In this document: positions 19,561 to 44,395 of the stretch, in pieces
Layout of the letters: the number at the start of each line of letters is the position of its first letter
Numbering within the stretch: the first letter of the stretch is position 1
Assembly: GCA_036493475.1 (NCBI GenBank)
Contig: DASXPS010000032.1
Location: 1-64,000, forward strand
Length of the DNA stretch: 64,000 nt
DNA from: Sporichthyaceae bacterium
GTDB taxonomy: Bacteria > Actinomycetota > Actinomycetes > Sporichthyales > Sporichthyaceae
Direction of reading: 5' to 3'
Translations under genes and position numbers: made by a program
The notes under the pieces: generated by a model
What the model saw: only the letters and a program-made list of their open reading frames with translations
Told to the model about the DNA's origin: nothing
Databases searched by the model: none

Positions 19561-20853
19561 TCAGGCCACGCGTCGGCCTGCGATGAAGGTGGCCACCGTG
19601 TGTTCGCCGGGGCTGCGCAGGACCAGGTCGGCGGGACAGCCCACGGTGATCCGGCGCGGTGGACCGCCGGGATCCTCGGGCGGCGCCAGGTAGCCGGCCA
19701 GCGCGGTGGCGTGGTCCAGGCATTCGGCGGGACCCAGCGCCTCGCCGTCCGGGGTGCGTCGGGTGACCGCGGCGTCGATCACCGCCCACGGGTCCAGCGG
19801 GCCGTTTGGGGCGTCGCTGGACAACGCAACCGGGATGCCCGCGGCGTGCAACGAGGCGCAGCGGTAGAGGTCTTGCTGGTCGGCCGCGGGCACGTCGCGG
19901 CGGTAGTCGTGGCCGCGGTCGGCGAGGAAACCGGGTTGGGTGACCACCCGGAGGCGGTGCTTGACCAGCAGGGGGATGGCTTCGGCGGGCACGATGGCGG
20001 CGTGCTCGAGGCGGTCGCCGGGGCGGGTGCCGACGGTGTCGAGGGCGGCGAGCAGCAGCGCGAGGGCCTCGCGGGTCACGCAGTGCACGGCCACGGCCCG
20101 GTCGGTGTCGTGCGCGGCGTCGATGCGGTTGGCGAGCTCGTCGAGGTCGGGCAGGGCGCCGTCGGCGAGCACGAGCTTGTAGGGCCCGACGCTGACGCCC
20201 GGCGGGGGGTGGCTCCCCGGGCCGATGCCCAACGCGGTGACGTGCTGGGGGAGTGCGCCGGCGTCGAGGGTGTCCAGATCTGGGGTGGCGTCGGTGACGG
20301 CGGTGATGCCGTGGCTCGCCAGCAGGGCACCGACCGGGGTGAGGTCCGGCGGGGTGGCGGGTAATCGGCTGCGCAGCCAGGGATCCGCGCGCCAGAGCCG
20401 GCCGGTGGGGGCACCGACCGGGTCGCGTTCGATGCCGGGGTGGTCGGCGGTGGCCAGGCCGAGGAGGTGCGCGCCGAGGGTGTTCACGCTCCACAGCGCG
20501 CCGCTGCGGTGCTGGACGCGGACCGGGCGCTGGGCGTGCAGGGTGTCGAGGGTGGCGGCGTCGAGGTCGTCGGCGCTGCCGGTGGCGCGGATCCAGCCGT
20601 GCGCGTCGGGGGTCGCTGCGCCAAGCGCCGTGCGGGCGGCGGTGTGGTCGAGGCCGGCCAGACAGACCGAGGTCAGTGCTGCGGCGAGGGCGTGCAGGTG
20701 CAGGTGGTGGTCGACCAGGCCGGGCAGCACGGTGGCGCCCACGGCGTCGAGGACTTCTTCGCCGCGCAGGTCGCTGCCGATCTCGGTGACGCGGCCCTGC
20801 GCCAGTCGCAGGTCGACGACGCGGCCGTCCAGCGTGGCGTTGCGGATCAGCAT
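19561..20853 (-). CDS. Amidohydrolase (metal-dependent, YtcJ/imidazolonepropionase-like)
   Basis: This 430-residue amidohydrolase-superfamily enzyme has the first metal motif in PGLVDHHLHLH (about residues 46-56), a possible carbamylated-lysine region GPYKLVLADG, metal-ligand histidines in AVHCVT and EHAAI, and the catalytic Asp in ALSSDAPNGPLDPW (about 355-368). The N- and C-terminal strands form the usual composite beta-sandwich. It would hydrolyse a C-N or C-O bond in a small cyclic or acyl substrate. The ATG has AAGGAAA upstream and overlaps the end of the CoA-transferase gene by seven bases, so both are one operon. Confidence 0.88.
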   Translation of the reverse strand: MLIRNATLDGRVVDLRLAQGRVTEIGSDLRGEEVLDAVGATVLPGLVDHHLHLHALAAALTSVCLAGLDHTAARTALGAATPDAHGWIRATGSADDLDAATLDTLHAQRPVRVQHRSGALWSVNTLGAHLLGLATADHPGIERDPVGAPTGRLWRADPWLRSRLPATPPDLTPVGALLASHGITAVTDATPDLDTLDAGALPQHVTALGIGPGSHPPPGVSVGPYKLVLADGALPDLDELANRIDAAHDTDRAVAVHCVTREALALLLAALDTVGTRPGDRLEHAAIVPAEAIPLLVKHRLRVVTQPGFLADRGHDYRRDVPAADQQDLYRCASLHAAGIPVALSSDAPNGPLDPWAVIDAAVTRRTPDGEALGPAECLDHATALAGYLAPPEDPGGPPRRITVGCPADLVLRSPGEHTVATFIAGRRVA

Positions 20854-22010
20854 CCGATTTCCTTGCGGACGGTCTCGGTGTCCGCGCCGGAGGTCGGTGC
20901 GTCGCCGCGCGGGGTGCGTGCGCGTGGCGCGGCGAGGTCGCCGGTGGCGATTACTGTCGGCTCGGCGTCGATCAGCGTGCTCGCGATCACGTCGTGCATG
21001 GACACCTCGACCAGGCTGCCCGGTGCCGCGCTGACCGCGCGGGCGGCCGCGGTGAGGCCGGCCAGCGGATCCGCGATGGCATCGCCGACGAACACCGGCC
21101 CGTGCGCGTCGGTGGCGACCAGGCCCGCGCCGGCGGCGACGTCGTCGCCGAAGCCGATGCGGTTGCTGTGGCGGCCGGCCGCCGTGATGGACACCCAGGT
21201 GGCGTGCGTGGATTCGGGTCCTAGGCCCCACGCGGCCAGTGCTCGCGGGCGGGATGCCTCGATCACGATGTCGGCTCGTTCGACCAGGGCGTGCAGCAGG
21301 CGTTGACCGTCGGGATCTGCCGGATCGGCGACCACCGAGCGGTGCCCGGCGTGCAGCAGGCGGTAGAACTCCGCGTTGCCGTAGCGAGCGCCGTCCGGGC
21401 GGTCCGGCGTCTCGACCTTGATGACCTGCGCCCCGGCCAGGCCGAGCAGGTGCGCGCACAGCGGCCCCGCCCACAGCGCGCTGAAGTCGACCACCAGCAG
21501 CCCCGGCACCGACCGCGCTGCCGCCCAATCTGTCGTTGCGTCCGAAGAAGAGTGTCCGGGCACCCGCACTTCTTCGGACGCTACGGCAGTGGCGGCGACG
21601 CCGAGGAGCGCGGCGCGCTCGGCGAGGTCGGCGGCGGGGCGTTCGCGCAGCCAGGCGCCGACTGCCGGCCACGGGTCGCCGACCACCTCTCGGCCGATGA
21701 GTGCGCCGAGCAGGGCCGGGTCGTCGGGCCGGGTGCAGGACACGGCCGCCCAGCCGTGGGCGGTGGGCAGCAGTCGGCAACTGCCGCCGAGCGAGATGGC
21801 GCCGTTGCGTCGATGGCCGGTGAATGCGGCCCGCTCGGCCAGCAGCCCCGCGCCGTCCACGCCGAGGTACTCGCCGAGTTGGCGCGCCCGGCTCGCGGCG
21901 TCGCCGGGGGGGATCAGTGCCGGGCCACCCTGACGCCCCGTCAGGTGTGCGATTCCGCCGGCCAGCCAATCGGTGATGCGCTGTCCGGCCGGCACCGCGC
22001 GACCATACAC
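20847..22010 (-). CDS. Family III CoA transferase (CaiB/BaiF) with permuted segment order
   Basis: This 387-residue family III CoA transferase does not open with the usual N-terminal motif. That motif appears only at about residues 168-195 (LLVVDFSALWAGPLCAHLL, then QVIKVETPDRPDGAR). Residues 1-150 resemble the small domain and return segment that usually come later (GGSCRLLPTAHGWAAV, LLGALIG). The catalytic Asp is probably in FVGDAIADPLAGL. A 16-residue insert (ASEEVRVPGHSSSD and flanks) sits at the junction between the halves and is encoded by the palindromic repeat listed separately. The GTG start leaves nine bases to the divergent crotonase gene. Confidence 0.85.
   Translation of the reverse strand: MYGRAVPAGQRITDWLAGGIAHLTGRQGGPALIPPGDAASRARQLGEYLGVDGAGLLAERAAFTGHRRNGAISLGGSCRLLPTAHGWAAVSCTRPDDPALLGALIGREVVGDPWPAVGAWLRERPAADLAERAALLGVAATAVASEEVRVPGHSSSDATTDWAAARSVPGLLVVDFSALWAGPLCAHLLGLAGAQVIKVETPDRPDGARYGNAEFYRLLHAGHRSVVADPADPDGQRLLHALVERADIVIEASRPRALAAWGLGPESTHATWVSITAAGRHSNRIGFGDDVAAGAGLVATDAHGPVFVGDAIADPLAGLTAAARAVSAAPGSLVEVSMHDVIASTLIDAEPTVIATGDLAAPRARTPRGDAPTSGADTETVRKEIGC
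21535..21584. repeat. 50-bp palindromic repeat inside the CoA-transferase gene (copy A)
   Basis: Inverted arms GCGTCCGAAGAAG and CTTCTTCGGACGC flank an 18-base centre. Read on the coding (minus) strand, it matches copy B at 43253-43302 at nearly every base and in the same frame, giving VASEEVRVPGHSSSDA. It sits in the linker between the two halves of the enzyme. Confidence 0.9.
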
Positions 22011-22019
22011 TCGGCGCCC

Positions 22020-22928
22020 GTGAGCGCTCGGCAGGCCGTGATGGTGGGCAAGCTCGCGATGGCGTTCGTCCCGCGGGGTGCGGAGAGCTCGCCCGACGAG
22101 ATCGGCGTTGACCACCTGCGGCACGTCGCGCGGCACCTCGATGAGGTGAACCGGGTCCACCCCGGCGCCGTCGCCGCCGTGGTGGACGTGCTGGACCAGA
22201 CCCTGGCCCTCGACGTCGAGGCCGCGCTCGAGCTCGAGTCGCGGGCCTACTCGGCTCTGTTGGCCGGGCCCGAATTCGCGCGTTGGCTGGACAACCGCGG
22301 CCCCCGCCCACTGCCCCCGCTGGTCGATGACCCGGTGCTGCTGCGCCGCGACCGTGACGTTCTGTACGTCACGCTCAACCGGCCCGAACGCCGCAATGCC
22401 TACGGCGCGCAACTGCGCGACGCCCTGGTCGCTGCGCTCGACGTGGCACTGCACGACCCCGACGTGCGGGTGGTGCTCGACGGCGCCGGCCCGTGCTTCT
22501 GTGCCGGCGGCGACCTGGCCGAGTTCGGCACCGCGCCGGACCTGGAGACGGCGCACCTCATCCGGACCCGGCACGGCGCCGCCCGACCGCTGCACGCGCT
22601 GGCCGAGCGCACCGAGGTGCGGCTGCACGGGCCGTGCATCGGCGCGGGCATCGAGCTCGCCGCGTTCGCCGGGCGGGTCCTTGCCGCGCCGGGCACGACC
22701 TTCCGGCTGCCCGAGATCGGTATGGGGCTGATCCCCGGCGCGGGCGGCACGGTCAGCATTCCGCGACGCATCGGGGTGCCCCGCACGCTCTATCTCGCGC
22801 TGAGCGGGGTCGACCTCGACGTCCAGACCGCGCTGGCGTGGGGTCTCGTCGACGAGATCAGCCCGGACTTAGCACATCGAGCACGCCCGTGCGGACCAGC
22901 TCGGCCCGGCAGGATTCCCGGTCGGTGA
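22020..22928 (+). CDS. Crotonase-family protein with permuted-looking segment order
   Basis: This 302-residue enoyl-CoA hydratase/isomerase homologue has its core at about residues 118-295: VLYVTLNRPERRNAYG, PCFCAGGDLAEFG and RLHGPCIGAGIELAAFAG. Residues 60-90 (VEAALELESRAYSALLAGPEFARWL) look like the helical C-terminus of a crotonase placed at the N-terminus. The gene ends just after GLVDEIS, where that C-terminal part would normally follow, which suggests circular permutation. The last 20 residues are low-complexity and overlap the convergent HAD gene by 71 bases, so the original stop may have been lost. Starts at GTG 22020 or ATG 22041 are possible. Confidence 0.8.
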   Translation: MSARQAVMVGKLAMAFVPRGAESSPDEIGVDHLRHVARHLDEVNRVHPGAVAAVVDVLDQTLALDVEAALELESRAYSALLAGPEFARWLDNRGPRPLPPLVDDPVLLRRDRDVLYVTLNRPERRNAYGAQLRDALVAALDVALHDPDVRVVLDGAGPCFCAGGDLAEFGTAPDLETAHLIRTRHGAARPLHALAERTEVRLHGPCIGAGIELAAFAGRVLAAPGTTFRLPEIGMGLIPGAGGTVSIPRRIGVPRTLYLALSGVDLDVQTALAWGLVDEISPDLAHRARPCGPARPGRIPGR

Positions 22929-29181: not shown

Positions 29182-30273
29182 GTGTCGACCCCCGCTGAGG
29201 ACCTGCGCGCCACGTTGACGACCCTGCCGGCGCAGCTGCGCCGCGGGTCCGACGCCTCGTTCGAGGAGGCCTTGGAGGCCCAGCGATGGCTGGCCTCGGT
29301 CGGCTGGGCCGCGCCCGGCTGGCCGGTCGAGCACGGTGGGCGCGGCCTCGGCGTCGGCGACCGGATTGCCTGCGACCGCGAGTTCTCCGCCGCCGACGTG
29401 CCGCTGCCCGCGGGCATTCTCGGCCTGGCCAACGTCGGCCCGGCGCTGATGGAGTTCGGTACCCCGGAGCAGCGCGCGAGCCTGCCGCGGATCCTGGACG
29501 GCAGCGAGATCTGGTGCCAGGGATTCAGTGAGCCGGATGCGGGCAGCGACCTGGCCGGGCTGCGCACCCGAGCCCGGCTCGACGACGATGACTTCGTGAT
29601 CGACGGTCAGAAGGTGTGGACCTCGCACGGCATGTGGGCCACCCACTGCATGCTGCTCGCCCGCACCGACCCGAATGCGCCCAAGCACAAGGGCATTTCC
29701 GTGCTGCTGGTGCCGATGGACACCGCCGGCATCGAGCGACGGCCGATCCGGATGATCTCCGGTGACTCGGAGTTCGCCGAGGTGTTCTTCACCGACGTGC
29801 GGGTGCCGCGTTCGGCGCTGATGGGACCGTTGCACGGCGGTTGGGGCGTCACCGTGCGCACCCTGGTACACGAACGCACCGGCGTGCTGACCCGGGCTGC
29901 GGCGCTGGCGGACCGAGCGCGCCGGATTGCCGCCGGCAGCGGCGATCCGGCCCCGTTGGACCGCGACGAACTGGTGCGCCGCTACGTCGACGCACGAGTG
30001 CTCGGTCAGCTGGGTCGGGCGACGTTGGCCCGCGGTGAGGCGGGGGAGGAGACGTCCGGCCTGCAGACGCTGATCAAGCTGTCCTGGGGCATCACCGACC
30101 GCGCCCTGGCCGAGACCGCACTCGACCTCGGCGGCCTGCCCGCCGTCACCGGCCTGCGCGAGGACCTCGCCTACCGCTGGCTGTTCACCCGCTGCTCGAC
30201 GATTGCCGCGGGCACTACCGAGGTGCTCAAGGACCTCGTCGCCGAACGCGTCCTCGGCCTGCCCCGCGCCTGA
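29182..30273 (+). CDS. Acyl-CoA dehydrogenase
   Basis: This 363-residue acyl-CoA dehydrogenase has the FAD-contact motif GFSEPDAGSDLAGLRTRA (about residues 114-131), KVWTSHG and the C-terminal STIAAGTTEVLKDLVAERVLGLP. The GTG start lies close behind site 3 without a clear Shine-Dalgarno, so the mRNA may be leaderless. It belongs to the long-chain/steroid-type group common in actinomycete catabolic clusters, where such proteins often pair as heteromers. It is monocistronic here, ending before the 120-bp palindrome. Confidence 0.92.
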   Translation: MSTPAEDLRATLTTLPAQLRRGSDASFEEALEAQRWLASVGWAAPGWPVEHGGRGLGVGDRIACDREFSAADVPLPAGILGLANVGPALMEFGTPEQRASLPRILDGSEIWCQGFSEPDAGSDLAGLRTRARLDDDDFVIDGQKVWTSHGMWATHCMLLARTDPNAPKHKGISVLLVPMDTAGIERRPIRMISGDSEFAEVFFTDVRVPRSALMGPLHGGWGVTVRTLVHERTGVLTRAAALADRARRIAAGSGDPAPLDRDELVRRYVDARVLGQLGRATLARGEAGEETSGLQTLIKLSWGITDRALAETALDLGGLPAVTGLREDLAYRWLFTRCSTIAAGTTEVLKDLVAERVLGLPRA

Positions 30274-30287
30274 GGCGCGCTTCCGGC

Positions 30288-30407
30288 TTGCTCATTCATG
30301 AGCGCAGCGGTGACTGTCATACGCAGGGCGTCATTTCCGCGCCCGGTTTGTCCAGGTTCTGTGACGCCTCGGGTATGACAGAGCGCGCTCAGATCATGAA
30401 TGAGCAA
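30288..30407. repeat. 120-bp three-tier symmetric inverted repeat
   Basis: Three nested perfect arms pair: TTGCTCATTCATGA (30288-30301) with 30394-30407; CTGTCATAC (30314-30322) with 30373-30381; and GGCGTCA (30327-30333) with 30362-30368. Unpaired spacers are equal on both sides (12 and 12, then 4 and 4 bases) around a 28-base centre. It fills the gap between the convergent acyl-CoA dehydrogenase and ferredoxin genes. It could be a bidirectional terminator, a MITE-like element or a protein-binding palindrome. Confidence 0.9.
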
Positions 30408-30427
30408 CCGAGCGGCGCCCTCGTGCG

Positions 30428-42854: not shown

Positions 42855-44395
42855 GCGACCGTATCCCCGGCGGTTCGCTGGCGAAGCTGCTCGCTTGGCG
42901 CGCGGCGGAGAATCCCGACGCCGGCTTCGTGTTCGTCGAGGACGACGGCCCGTGGACCTATGGGCAATTGGCCGCGGCCGCGTCTCGCATCGCCACTCAG
43001 CTCACCGTCACCCCCGGCGACCGGGTGATCGTCCGCGTTGGAAACGACGAACGCTTTCTGCCCGCGCTGTGTGCGGTGTGGCTGCGCGCGGCCGCCGTCG
43101 TCCCCATGCACCCCGCAGCACCCGCGGCCGAGGTCACGCGGGTGGTCGAGGCACTGGACGTCAGCGCCGTCATCGCCGACCCCGACGACCCATGCCGCAT
43201 CGAGGTCGCCGTCCCCGTCACCCCCTTCCCCCGCATCCCCCTCACCACCCCCGTTGCGTCCGAAGAAGTGGGGGTGCCCGGACCCTCTTCTTCGGACGCA
43301 AGGCAGGGGGTGGGGTCGCAGCCGGCGCTGGTATTGCTCACCTCGGGGACGACCGGTGCGCCGAAGGGTGTGGTGCTCACTCACGACAATGCCTGGTCCA
43401 ATGTGCGCGCCACGGTTTCCGCGTTCCGCAGCGACACCACGCCGACCCCGCTCGCCGCCGAGGACAAGCCGCCGAACCTCATCGCGAACCCGCTCTCGCA
43501 CACCGCGGGCGTGGTGCGGCTGATCTTCGCGCTCTACGTCGGGCGGCGCGTCGTGTTGCTGCGCAAGTTCGACGGCCGCACCACCAAACGACTACTGGAC
43601 CGGCACGGCATCGACGCATTGACGTTGAACCCGACGATGCTGCGGATTCTGCTCGACGCCCTGGAACCCGGTGCGGACCTCGGCCGGGTGCGCTACGTCG
43701 GGTCGGGCACCGCGCCGTTGCCGCCCGCGCTGCGCGAGGAGTTCGAGGCGCGGTTCAAGGTGCCGGTGCTGCAGGCCTACGGGCAGACGGAGGCGTTCGG
43801 CGGCATCACGGTGGAGAGCGTCAAGGACGTGTTGGCCGGCCGCCGCCGGCCGGGCTCGGTGGGCCGCGCGCTGCCCGGCGTCGAACTGCGCATCGTCTGC
43901 GCCGACGGCTCCGCTGCCGCGCCCGGCGAGCAGGGCGAGATCCAGGCCCGCAGCAGATCCTGCACGGCCGGCTACCTCGGCGCGGAGCCCGGCGCCGGCC
44001 CGCTGGATGCCGACGGCTGGCTGCGCACCGGTGACCTCGGGCACCTCGACACCGACGGTTACCTCTACATCACCGGCCGGTTGAAAAACACCATCATTTG
44101 CGGCGGTTTCAACGTCATCCCCGAGGAGGTCGAGGCCGCCCTGGAGGAAGACCCACGGGTGCGCGAGGCGGTCGTGGTGCCGCTGCCCGACGACAAACTC
44201 GGCGAGATCCCGGTTGCCGTGGTGGAGGCCGACGCCACTCCCGCCGACGTGTTGGCCGCGGTGGCACCGCGGTTGGCGCCGTACAAGCGGCCGCGGCAGG
44301 TGTTCGTGGTGACGCAGCTACCCCGGGTGCCCAACGGCAAGGTGGACCGGCCCGCCGCGCAGGCGATGGCCAAGGGCGCGGCGAGCACGCTGTGA
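42851..44395 (+). CDS. AMP-forming acyl-CoA synthetase containing the palindromic insert
   Basis: This 514-residue ANL ligase has the A3 motif LLTSGTTGAPKG (about residues 162-173), A5 QAYGQTEAFGG, A7/A8 GWLRTGDLGHLDTDGYLYITGRLKN and the catalytic Lys in VPNGKVDRP near residue 499. Just before A3, at about residues 135-151, is a 16-residue insert (VASEEVGVPGPSSSDA) encoded by the palindromic repeat; it occupies a surface linker and need not affect catalysis. The ATG overlaps the aldehyde dehydrogenase stop. Confidence 0.93.
   Translation: MSDRIPGGSLAKLLAWRAAENPDAGFVFVEDDGPWTYGQLAAAASRIATQLTVTPGDRVIVRVGNDERFLPALCAVWLRAAAVVPMHPAAPAAEVTRVVEALDVSAVIADPDDPCRIEVAVPVTPFPRIPLTTPVASEEVGVPGPSSSDARQGVGSQPALVLLTSGTTGAPKGVVLTHDNAWSNVRATVSAFRSDTTPTPLAAEDKPPNLIANPLSHTAGVVRLIFALYVGRRVVLLRKFDGRTTKRLLDRHGIDALTLNPTMLRILLDALEPGADLGRVRYVGSGTAPLPPALREEFEARFKVPVLQAYGQTEAFGGITVESVKDVLAGRRRPGSVGRALPGVELRIVCADGSAAAPGEQGEIQARSRSCTAGYLGAEPGAGPLDADGWLRTGDLGHLDTDGYLYITGRLKNTIICGGFNVIPEEVEAALEEDPRVREAVVVPLPDDKLGEIPVAVVEADATPADVLAAVAPRLAPYKRPRQVFVVTQLPRVPNGKVDRPAAQAMAKGAASTL
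43253..43302. repeat. 50-bp palindromic repeat inside the acyl-CoA ligase gene (copy B)
   Basis: Perfect 15-base arms TTGCGTCCGAAGAAG (43254-43268) and CTTCTTCGGACGCAA (43287-43301) flank an 18-base centre that itself contains GGGTGCCCGGACCC. The element shares the copy A sequence and frame. It lies in the linker before the ATP-binding A3 motif. Confidence 0.92.

Follow-up and report, generated by a model that had tools for sequence, protein, structure and literature searches.

Many bacteria carry short palindromic repeats; we know of no enzyme responsible for any of their classes other than those served by RAYT, which is a HUH tyrosine transposase. The closest described systems are the CGTC REPs, which include RPE-4 and RPE-6 of Rickettsia and dRS3 of Neisseria; these are short dispersed palindromes starting with CGTC, in which CGTC is an unpaired tag, the stem of 8-9 bp starts with AT, and a short CCA tail is present (Di Nocera 2013, PMC3733652). 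They lie mostly less than 20 bp past the 3' ends of genes, in convergent and unidirectional contexts, and some of them lie in genes; no Y1 transposase is associated with them, a dedicated enzyme is said to be lacking, and the survey that describes them names no Actinobacteria (PMC3733652). Intrastrand triplex motif repeats of the CCCTCTCCC..GGGAGAGGG type have also been described, with no mobility genes near their E. coli copies (Holder 2015, PMC4666352).

The window, i.e., the whole stretch of 64,000 nucleotides that was analysed, contains two palindromic elements inside the genes of unrelated enzymes (Table 1). Both were found where the preliminary description had placed them and encode the peptides that it had read from them; compared in the coding sense they are equal at 46 of 50 bases, with 4 mismatches, and the inverted arms of 13-15 bases around an 18-base centre were confirmed as well.

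Table 1. Palindromic elements of the window and the genes that contain them.
Feature	Position	Strand	Remarks
Palindromic element, copy 1	43253..43302	+	Inside acyl-CoA ligase gene; encodes VASEEVGVPGPSSSDA
Arms of copy 1	43254-43268 and 43287-43301		Perfect 15-nt arms, 18-nt centre
Palindromic element, copy 2	21535..21584	-	Inside CaiB/BaiF-like CoA-transferase gene; encodes VASEEVRVPGHSSSDA
Host gene 1, acyl-CoA ligase, 514 aa	42851..44395	+	84% identity to its orthologue in G001, the sister genome
Host gene 2, ORF with CoA transferase	20847..22628	-	Orthologues align over about 20850-21975 only

The arms of copy 2 are perfect over 13 nt (left GTAGCG, right CGCAAC), and imperfect pairing reaches out to 21530-21589. 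In the ligase, the element occupies the linker directly preceding the LLTSGTTGAPKG motif, and in the CoA transferase a linker ahead of the GLLVVDFSALWAGP segment. No other hairpin in the window is as strong as these two copies. Their arm core, CCGAAGAAG, occurs four times in the window, in all cases in the arms of these copies, versus 0.32 occurrences expected, and a perfect 15+15 inverted pair at one fixed spacing would be expected about 6e-5 times per 64 kb if bases were uniform. The idea that the core is an uptake signal was dropped, as it was never found singly within the window. Two further repeats were seen in the window. A long imperfect intergenic inverted repeat (30277-30418; 57-nt arms, 74%, 28-nt gap) directly follows a gene ending at 30273 and holds TGTCATAC...GTATGACA, which resembles the CGTCATAC palindromes of other genomes, and a 42-nt exact tandem duplication at 1000-1083 repeats 14 residues (TRVLKPGERATGED) in frame in the ORF 2-1525.

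The genome from which the window comes (G000; a draft of 4.27 Mb in 217 contigs) contains 23 copies of GCGTCCGAAGAAG-N18-CTTCTTCGGACGC at no more than 3 mismatches, with no match to reversed-pattern controls. A search for exact CGTCCGA-N28-TCGGACG returned 29 matches, of which at least one (C165:42141) is chance-like, and again none in controls; thus, the repeat is a dispersed palindromic family, and the two copies of the window are not alone. The length of the repeat is fixed, as allowing gaps of 14 to 44 gave only few further, chance-like matches. It consists of a 42-bp core in a full palindrome of about 50 bp, whose arms often reach CCCCGTTGCGTCC...GGACGCAACGGGG, and it had no match in Rfam. 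All copy counts are minima, since such hairpins seem to break assemblies, and masked or unresolved bases (N runs) fall in the palindromes of some slots. At two slots of the draft genome G003 (L130 and L152), the N runs lie exactly within the palindromes.

Five genomes of the order were compared (G000-G004), of which G001 is a sister genome of the same genus and G002 is a single contig. The outer arms are common to G002 (60 copies), G003 (20 copies), and G004 (42 copies), and the centres are lineage-specific (TGGCTGCWATWGCAGCCA in G002 and G003, GAGCGCTATAGCGCTC in G004). The sister genome had no copy of the CGTCCGA-type family, its sole match to the pattern being non-palindromic. When 84,980 named species were scanned, a set from which records close to the window's own genome may be missing, exact 12+12 arms turned up in Kribbella only (14 loci), a genus of another order with the same arms. 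A close arm variant was seen in one genome of family f26.

Genes were called around 88 sampled copies by a simple codon-usage method, which makes the following assignments approximate: 67 copies are intergenic, 15 lie in genes, and 6 extend over gene ends. The 65 intergenic copies that could be classified were in convergent (30), unidirectional (30), and divergent (5) contexts. Where a 3' end was adjacent, 49 of 60 copies lay at most 20 nt from it, versus 349 of 2844 random placements, i.e., possible positions between genes of the window. The preliminary description had likened the repeat to the protein-inserting palindromes of Rickettsia. This comparison fits how the repeat works, as its behaviour is RPE/REP-like, but not what it mainly does, as most copies lie between genes, mostly just past stop codons, and inserted peptides account for no more than a part of what is seen.

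The shared frame of the two window copies, noted initially, extends to the family: among the 15 in-gene copies, 13 have the reading xCG TCC GAA GAA ... TCT TCG GAC GCx (p = 3e-5 versus one third), with several in-gene copies so near C-termini that their status may hinge on the gene call. Either selection for a tolerated peptide or frame-biased mobility had been offered as the cause. Among 176 element strands, stops occurred in 71 in frame 0, 10 in frame 1, and 3 in frame 2. As stops are common in frame 0 only, their avoidance accounts for part of the bias, and the remainder is probably due to the polar peptide. Selection for a tolerated peptide is thus sufficient, and frame-biased mobility is not needed, given the frame-0 stops and the small, polar, flexible peptide that the preferred frame provides.

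The two enzymes do not have clean 16-residue insertions. The CoA transferase of the sister genome carries, in the same position and frame, a perfect 50-bp palindrome of a different family, GTTGCGTCAGCGAAACCGTGCGCTGCAGTGCACGGTTTCGCTGACGCAAC, and its acyl-CoA ligase carries a CGTCAGCG element in the same position and frame as the window copy; these two are the sole CGTCAGCG-type copies in 400 kb of G001, in which CGTCCGA-type copies numbered 0. The element is absent from the G002 and G003 orthologues of both enzymes. An unrelated linker takes its place in the g2 orthologues and is 6 residues shorter in the ligase. The precise absence of the 16 residues that had been anticipated for orthologues was therefore not observed, and an insertion of that kind was rejected. 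Neither of the two outcomes named in the preliminary description as fatal to it, i.e., the two copies being the only ones in the genome, or palindrome-free orthologues having the same peptide by descent, came true.

Changes of family were also seen between genes. The slot between PhoH and fumC holds at least three palindrome arm types over the five genomes, and in the sister genome the L011 slot is occupied by an ordinary GC hairpin in place of the palindrome. Sites that are empty or altered relative to G000 were found at the L013, L040, and L012 slots. At L013, a clean gap in G001 suggests that about 66 bp are extra in G000, exceeding the palindrome. Most of the empty sites differ in the surrounding intergenic bases too, which blurs the boundaries and makes target duplication undefinable at the sister-genome sites; a clean target-site duplication was dropped for the blurred boundaries at these three slots. 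As slots are empty in G001 and shared slots hold other families, we conclude that copies are gained and lost, and that existing slots change family.

The main new point of the analysis, which lies outside what the preliminary description had claimed, is that a cognate nuclease gene is flanked by the same palindromes. In Kribbella sindirgiensis, as in G000 (contig C50), G002, and G003, copies lie on either side of one homologous gene. Its product, of about 310 aa and with 43-98% identity among these genomes, has a C-terminal domain of the DUF559 type (Vsr-like PD-(D/E)XK), with 21 of 39 members matching PF04480. The nuclease profile matched PDB 3hrl (E 1.3e-5) and PvuRts1I (E 0.008), and its comparison by hhalign with a set of YcjD-like DUF559 proteins gave 96.9% and E 1.8e-10. 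Across 39 homologues, residues E217, D248, E259, G262, and H265 do not vary, as would be expected of an active PD-(D/E)XK enzyme. The N-terminal part, of about 200 residues, has weak AbiEi-like similarity (weak AbiEi_4 matches in 8 of 39 members). No relatives of the nuclease were present in the viral contigs and PLSDB plasmids searched; this indicates that the gene is not highly mobile, and a phage or plasmid origin was rejected on the same ground. A RAYT/Y1 transposase (PF01797) as the enzyme behind the window repeat was rejected as well, since it was found in 0 of 8 genomes tested, Kribbella included.

In G000, G002, and G003, the palindrome-nuclease-palindrome unit has fumC and the PEPCK gene as its neighbours; in G001, it is missing from the same syntenic place. 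The loss of the nuclease accompanies the loss of its palindrome family, as both are absent from the sister genome. The CGTCAGCG-type family is present there, and no nuclease homologue was found at E<1e-25 among the five candidates scored. In G004 (C227; L203 and L127), a partial nuclease match, spanning model positions 133-312, lies between PEPCK and fumC. It is apparently a decaying copy, and about 42 palindromes persist in this genome.

Homologues of the nuclease were found at E<1e-25 in 101 of 395 Actinomycetes genomes, with five candidates scored per genome. When both sides of each locus were compared by their best ungapped match within 300 bp, matching palindromes flanked 41 of 50 homologue loci and none of 141 control genes (56 of the window and 85 of Kribbella; Fisher 2.6e-33), the criterion being a match above the control maximum. 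What matched were palindromes of about 42-50 bp, with arms that vary by nuclease; the arm types comprise CGTCCGAAG, CGTCATACG, CGTCATAGG, CGTCCTACGG, CGTCAGCG, GTTCGAAGAAG, GATCTTGGAAG, TTGTCAG, GGTCGAGG, and GGGGGTG, among others. Paralogues within a genome have unlike arms (L080 versus L108; L078 versus L110 versus L111): in G000, the arms are CGTCCGAAG at C50 and CGTCCGCTCG at C49, and in G002 they are CGTCCGAAG, CGTCCGTGG, and CGTCAGCG. The second paralogue of G000 (L108, G000:C49:11156-13676) is flanked by its own type, CGTCCGCTCGAC...GGCGGACG. Related nucleases tend to have similar arms (Mantel r -0.42, p 0.0005, n 36, shared species history included). This correspondence between arms and protein is not strict, as the same arms are shared by Kribbella and the window's genome though the nucleases are only about 43-46% identical.

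In the f26 family, genomes with the nuclease have 2-53 CGTCMT palindromes (median about 17; 4-53 in all but one), versus 0-6 in all but one of the genomes without it (p 0.0004). One genome, G135, has 21 CGTCMT palindromes and no nuclease match at E<1e-25 among the five candidates scored; either a diverged nuclease was missed or the family is a relic.

Beyond Actinomycetes, plasmid records queried with E. coli YcjD yielded short YcjD-like DUF559 genes of alphaproteobacteria, Neisseria, Deinococcus, and cyanobacteria, of which 11 of 14 were flanked by matching palindromes, mostly of the CCCTCTCCC..GGGAGAGGG type. Some of the proteobacterial and cyanobacterial ORFs run into the flanking palindromes and end in tails such as NPSPEGEG or SPVGEGPGV (L186, L195, L197). 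The ycjD gene of E. coli K-12 (L184, 1908-2261) has at one end a hairpin of about 45 bp with perfect pairing (TCACCTCATTCTGACA...TGTCAGAATGAGGTGA), with no matching copy on its other side. Taken together, these results leave us with little doubt that the nuclease-palindrome pairing is real, and it appears to recur in many bacteria. The pairing is new in that we found no earlier report of it: the open-access literature, to which our search was confined, contained nothing connecting DUF559 to palindromic repeats.

On balance, we favour the reading that the window copies are dispersed hairpin repeats kept and spread by the nuclease encoded elsewhere in the genome, on contig C50. The best description of the whole is probably a REP/RAYT-like system in which an unrelated enzyme maintains, spreads, and overwrites its own palindromes, with catalysis and mobilisation as its predicted activities. 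Once its own palindrome is extruded as a hairpin or cruciform, the nuclease would recognise the arms and nick or cut this palindrome, and repair would then copy the sequence in from another copy, so that older palindromes would be overwritten in place and new sites seeded occasionally. Copies at 3' ends may persist because they do least harm or because they help as bidirectional terminators, as many of the palindromes probably do. In proteins, copies would survive only in linkers, and mostly where the reading frame yields a small polar peptide (ASEE...SSSDA).

The termination function could also be the whole explanation, with the palindromes being host terminators or mRNA-end hairpins that are selected and homogenised by gene conversion, and the nuclease insulated by two of them by chance. 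Strong hairpins (-30 to -46 kcal/mol) beside stop codons, the convergent genes around 30 of the 65 classified intergenic copies, the slots kept between genomes though their sequences differ, and the ordinary GC hairpin in the sister genome all accord with such hairpins. However, a U-tract is absent, and this explanation, which we consider rather unlikely, accounts neither for the matching on both sides of the nuclease loci (41/50 versus 0/141), nor for arms that depend on the nuclease, nor for the in-gene copies. A terminator role can coexist with the nuclease-driven explanation.

It is also unlikely that the nuclease and its palindromes are a defence or repair unit, in which the nuclease is directed at hairpins or at foreign DNA and the palindromes are regulatory or self-protection sites rather than spreading copies. 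The Vsr/PvuRts1I-type fold, the weak AbiEi_4 matches, and the chromosomal, partly syntenic position of the gene are consistent with this, but the tens of copies dispersed in the genome, their lineage-specific amplification, and their presence inside enzymes resemble spreading and not regulation, and no methylase or other partner gene was found beside the nuclease loci examined. That some ordinary transposase moves the palindromes as MITEs or REPs, with the nuclease as a frequent passenger between copies, seems quite improbable: the REP-like size, the 3'-end placement, and in-gene copies as in GTAG/CGTC REPs (PMC3733652) agree with it, but the genomes tested lacked the Y1 (RAYT) transposase, and one nuclease family lies between cognate copies in many genera, with arms changing with the nuclease. 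Chance palindromes or an assembly artefact, conceivable in a draft of 217 contigs, can be dismissed, as they are refuted by the absence of control matches and by the single fixed length, and the same arms recur in G002, which is a single contig, and in an independent genus.

If palindromes are indeed propagated by their nucleases, it may be, and we offer this tentatively, that nucleases of the DUF559 type act throughout bacteria as selfish or domesticated 'palindrome converters', each recognising its own hairpin and propagating it by cutting and overwriting palindromic slots, many of which are terminators, and not by transposition. If true, repeats would spread in a way that is new to the literature, and several classes of short palindromic repeats would gain the enzyme that they have lacked. 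The recurrence of nuclease-specific palindromes on either side of DUF559 genes makes DUF559 a concrete candidate enzyme for such repeats. The pairing also offers a function for a widespread family of 'unknown function', and a testable explanation for the concerted evolution of gene-end hairpins and for peptides grafted into enzymes.

Compared with known systems, the window family resembles the CGTC REPs in that its copies all start with CGTC and have the same 3'-end placement. Unlike in those REPs, CGTC here is paired with the GACG that closes a near-perfect palindrome of 42 bp, and a nuclease is linked to the palindromes; the stem and tag that define CGTC REPs are not those of the window family, AT follows CGTC only in f26 families, and other nucleases go with arms such as GATCTTGG, TTGTCAG, and GTTCGAAG. 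The triplex-motif repeats differ in sequence from the window palindromes, and palindromes like them (PMC4666352) flank the DUF559 genes of Proteobacteria, Deinococcus, and Cyanobacteria. As in the Rickettsia palindromic elements, the in-gene copies are translated in frame inside unrelated proteins, but here the repeats are about 50 bp long, mainly intergenic, GC-rich, and found in Actinomycetes. As regards MITEs, which have terminal inverted repeats in common with an autonomous element as well as a target-site duplication, palindrome-nuclease-palindrome units exist here, and target duplication was undefinable at the sister-genome sites. The nuclease shares its catalytic domain with DUF559/YcjD/3hrl and Vsr-like proteins, to which it belongs by profile similarity and by the conserved D...E-x-x-G..H core; unlike YcjD-type DUF559, the actinomycete proteins add the N-terminal part. 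Finally, as in GTAG REPs/REPINs with RAYT, a gene is flanked by dispersed palindromes and each enzyme has its own type, here at 41 of 50 loci and with a different enzyme: in contrast to RAYT-REP, there is no GTAG tag at the ends and no Y1_Tnp, but a PD-(D/E)XK (DUF559) nuclease. The window family thus works like a RAYT-REP system without being a member of it.
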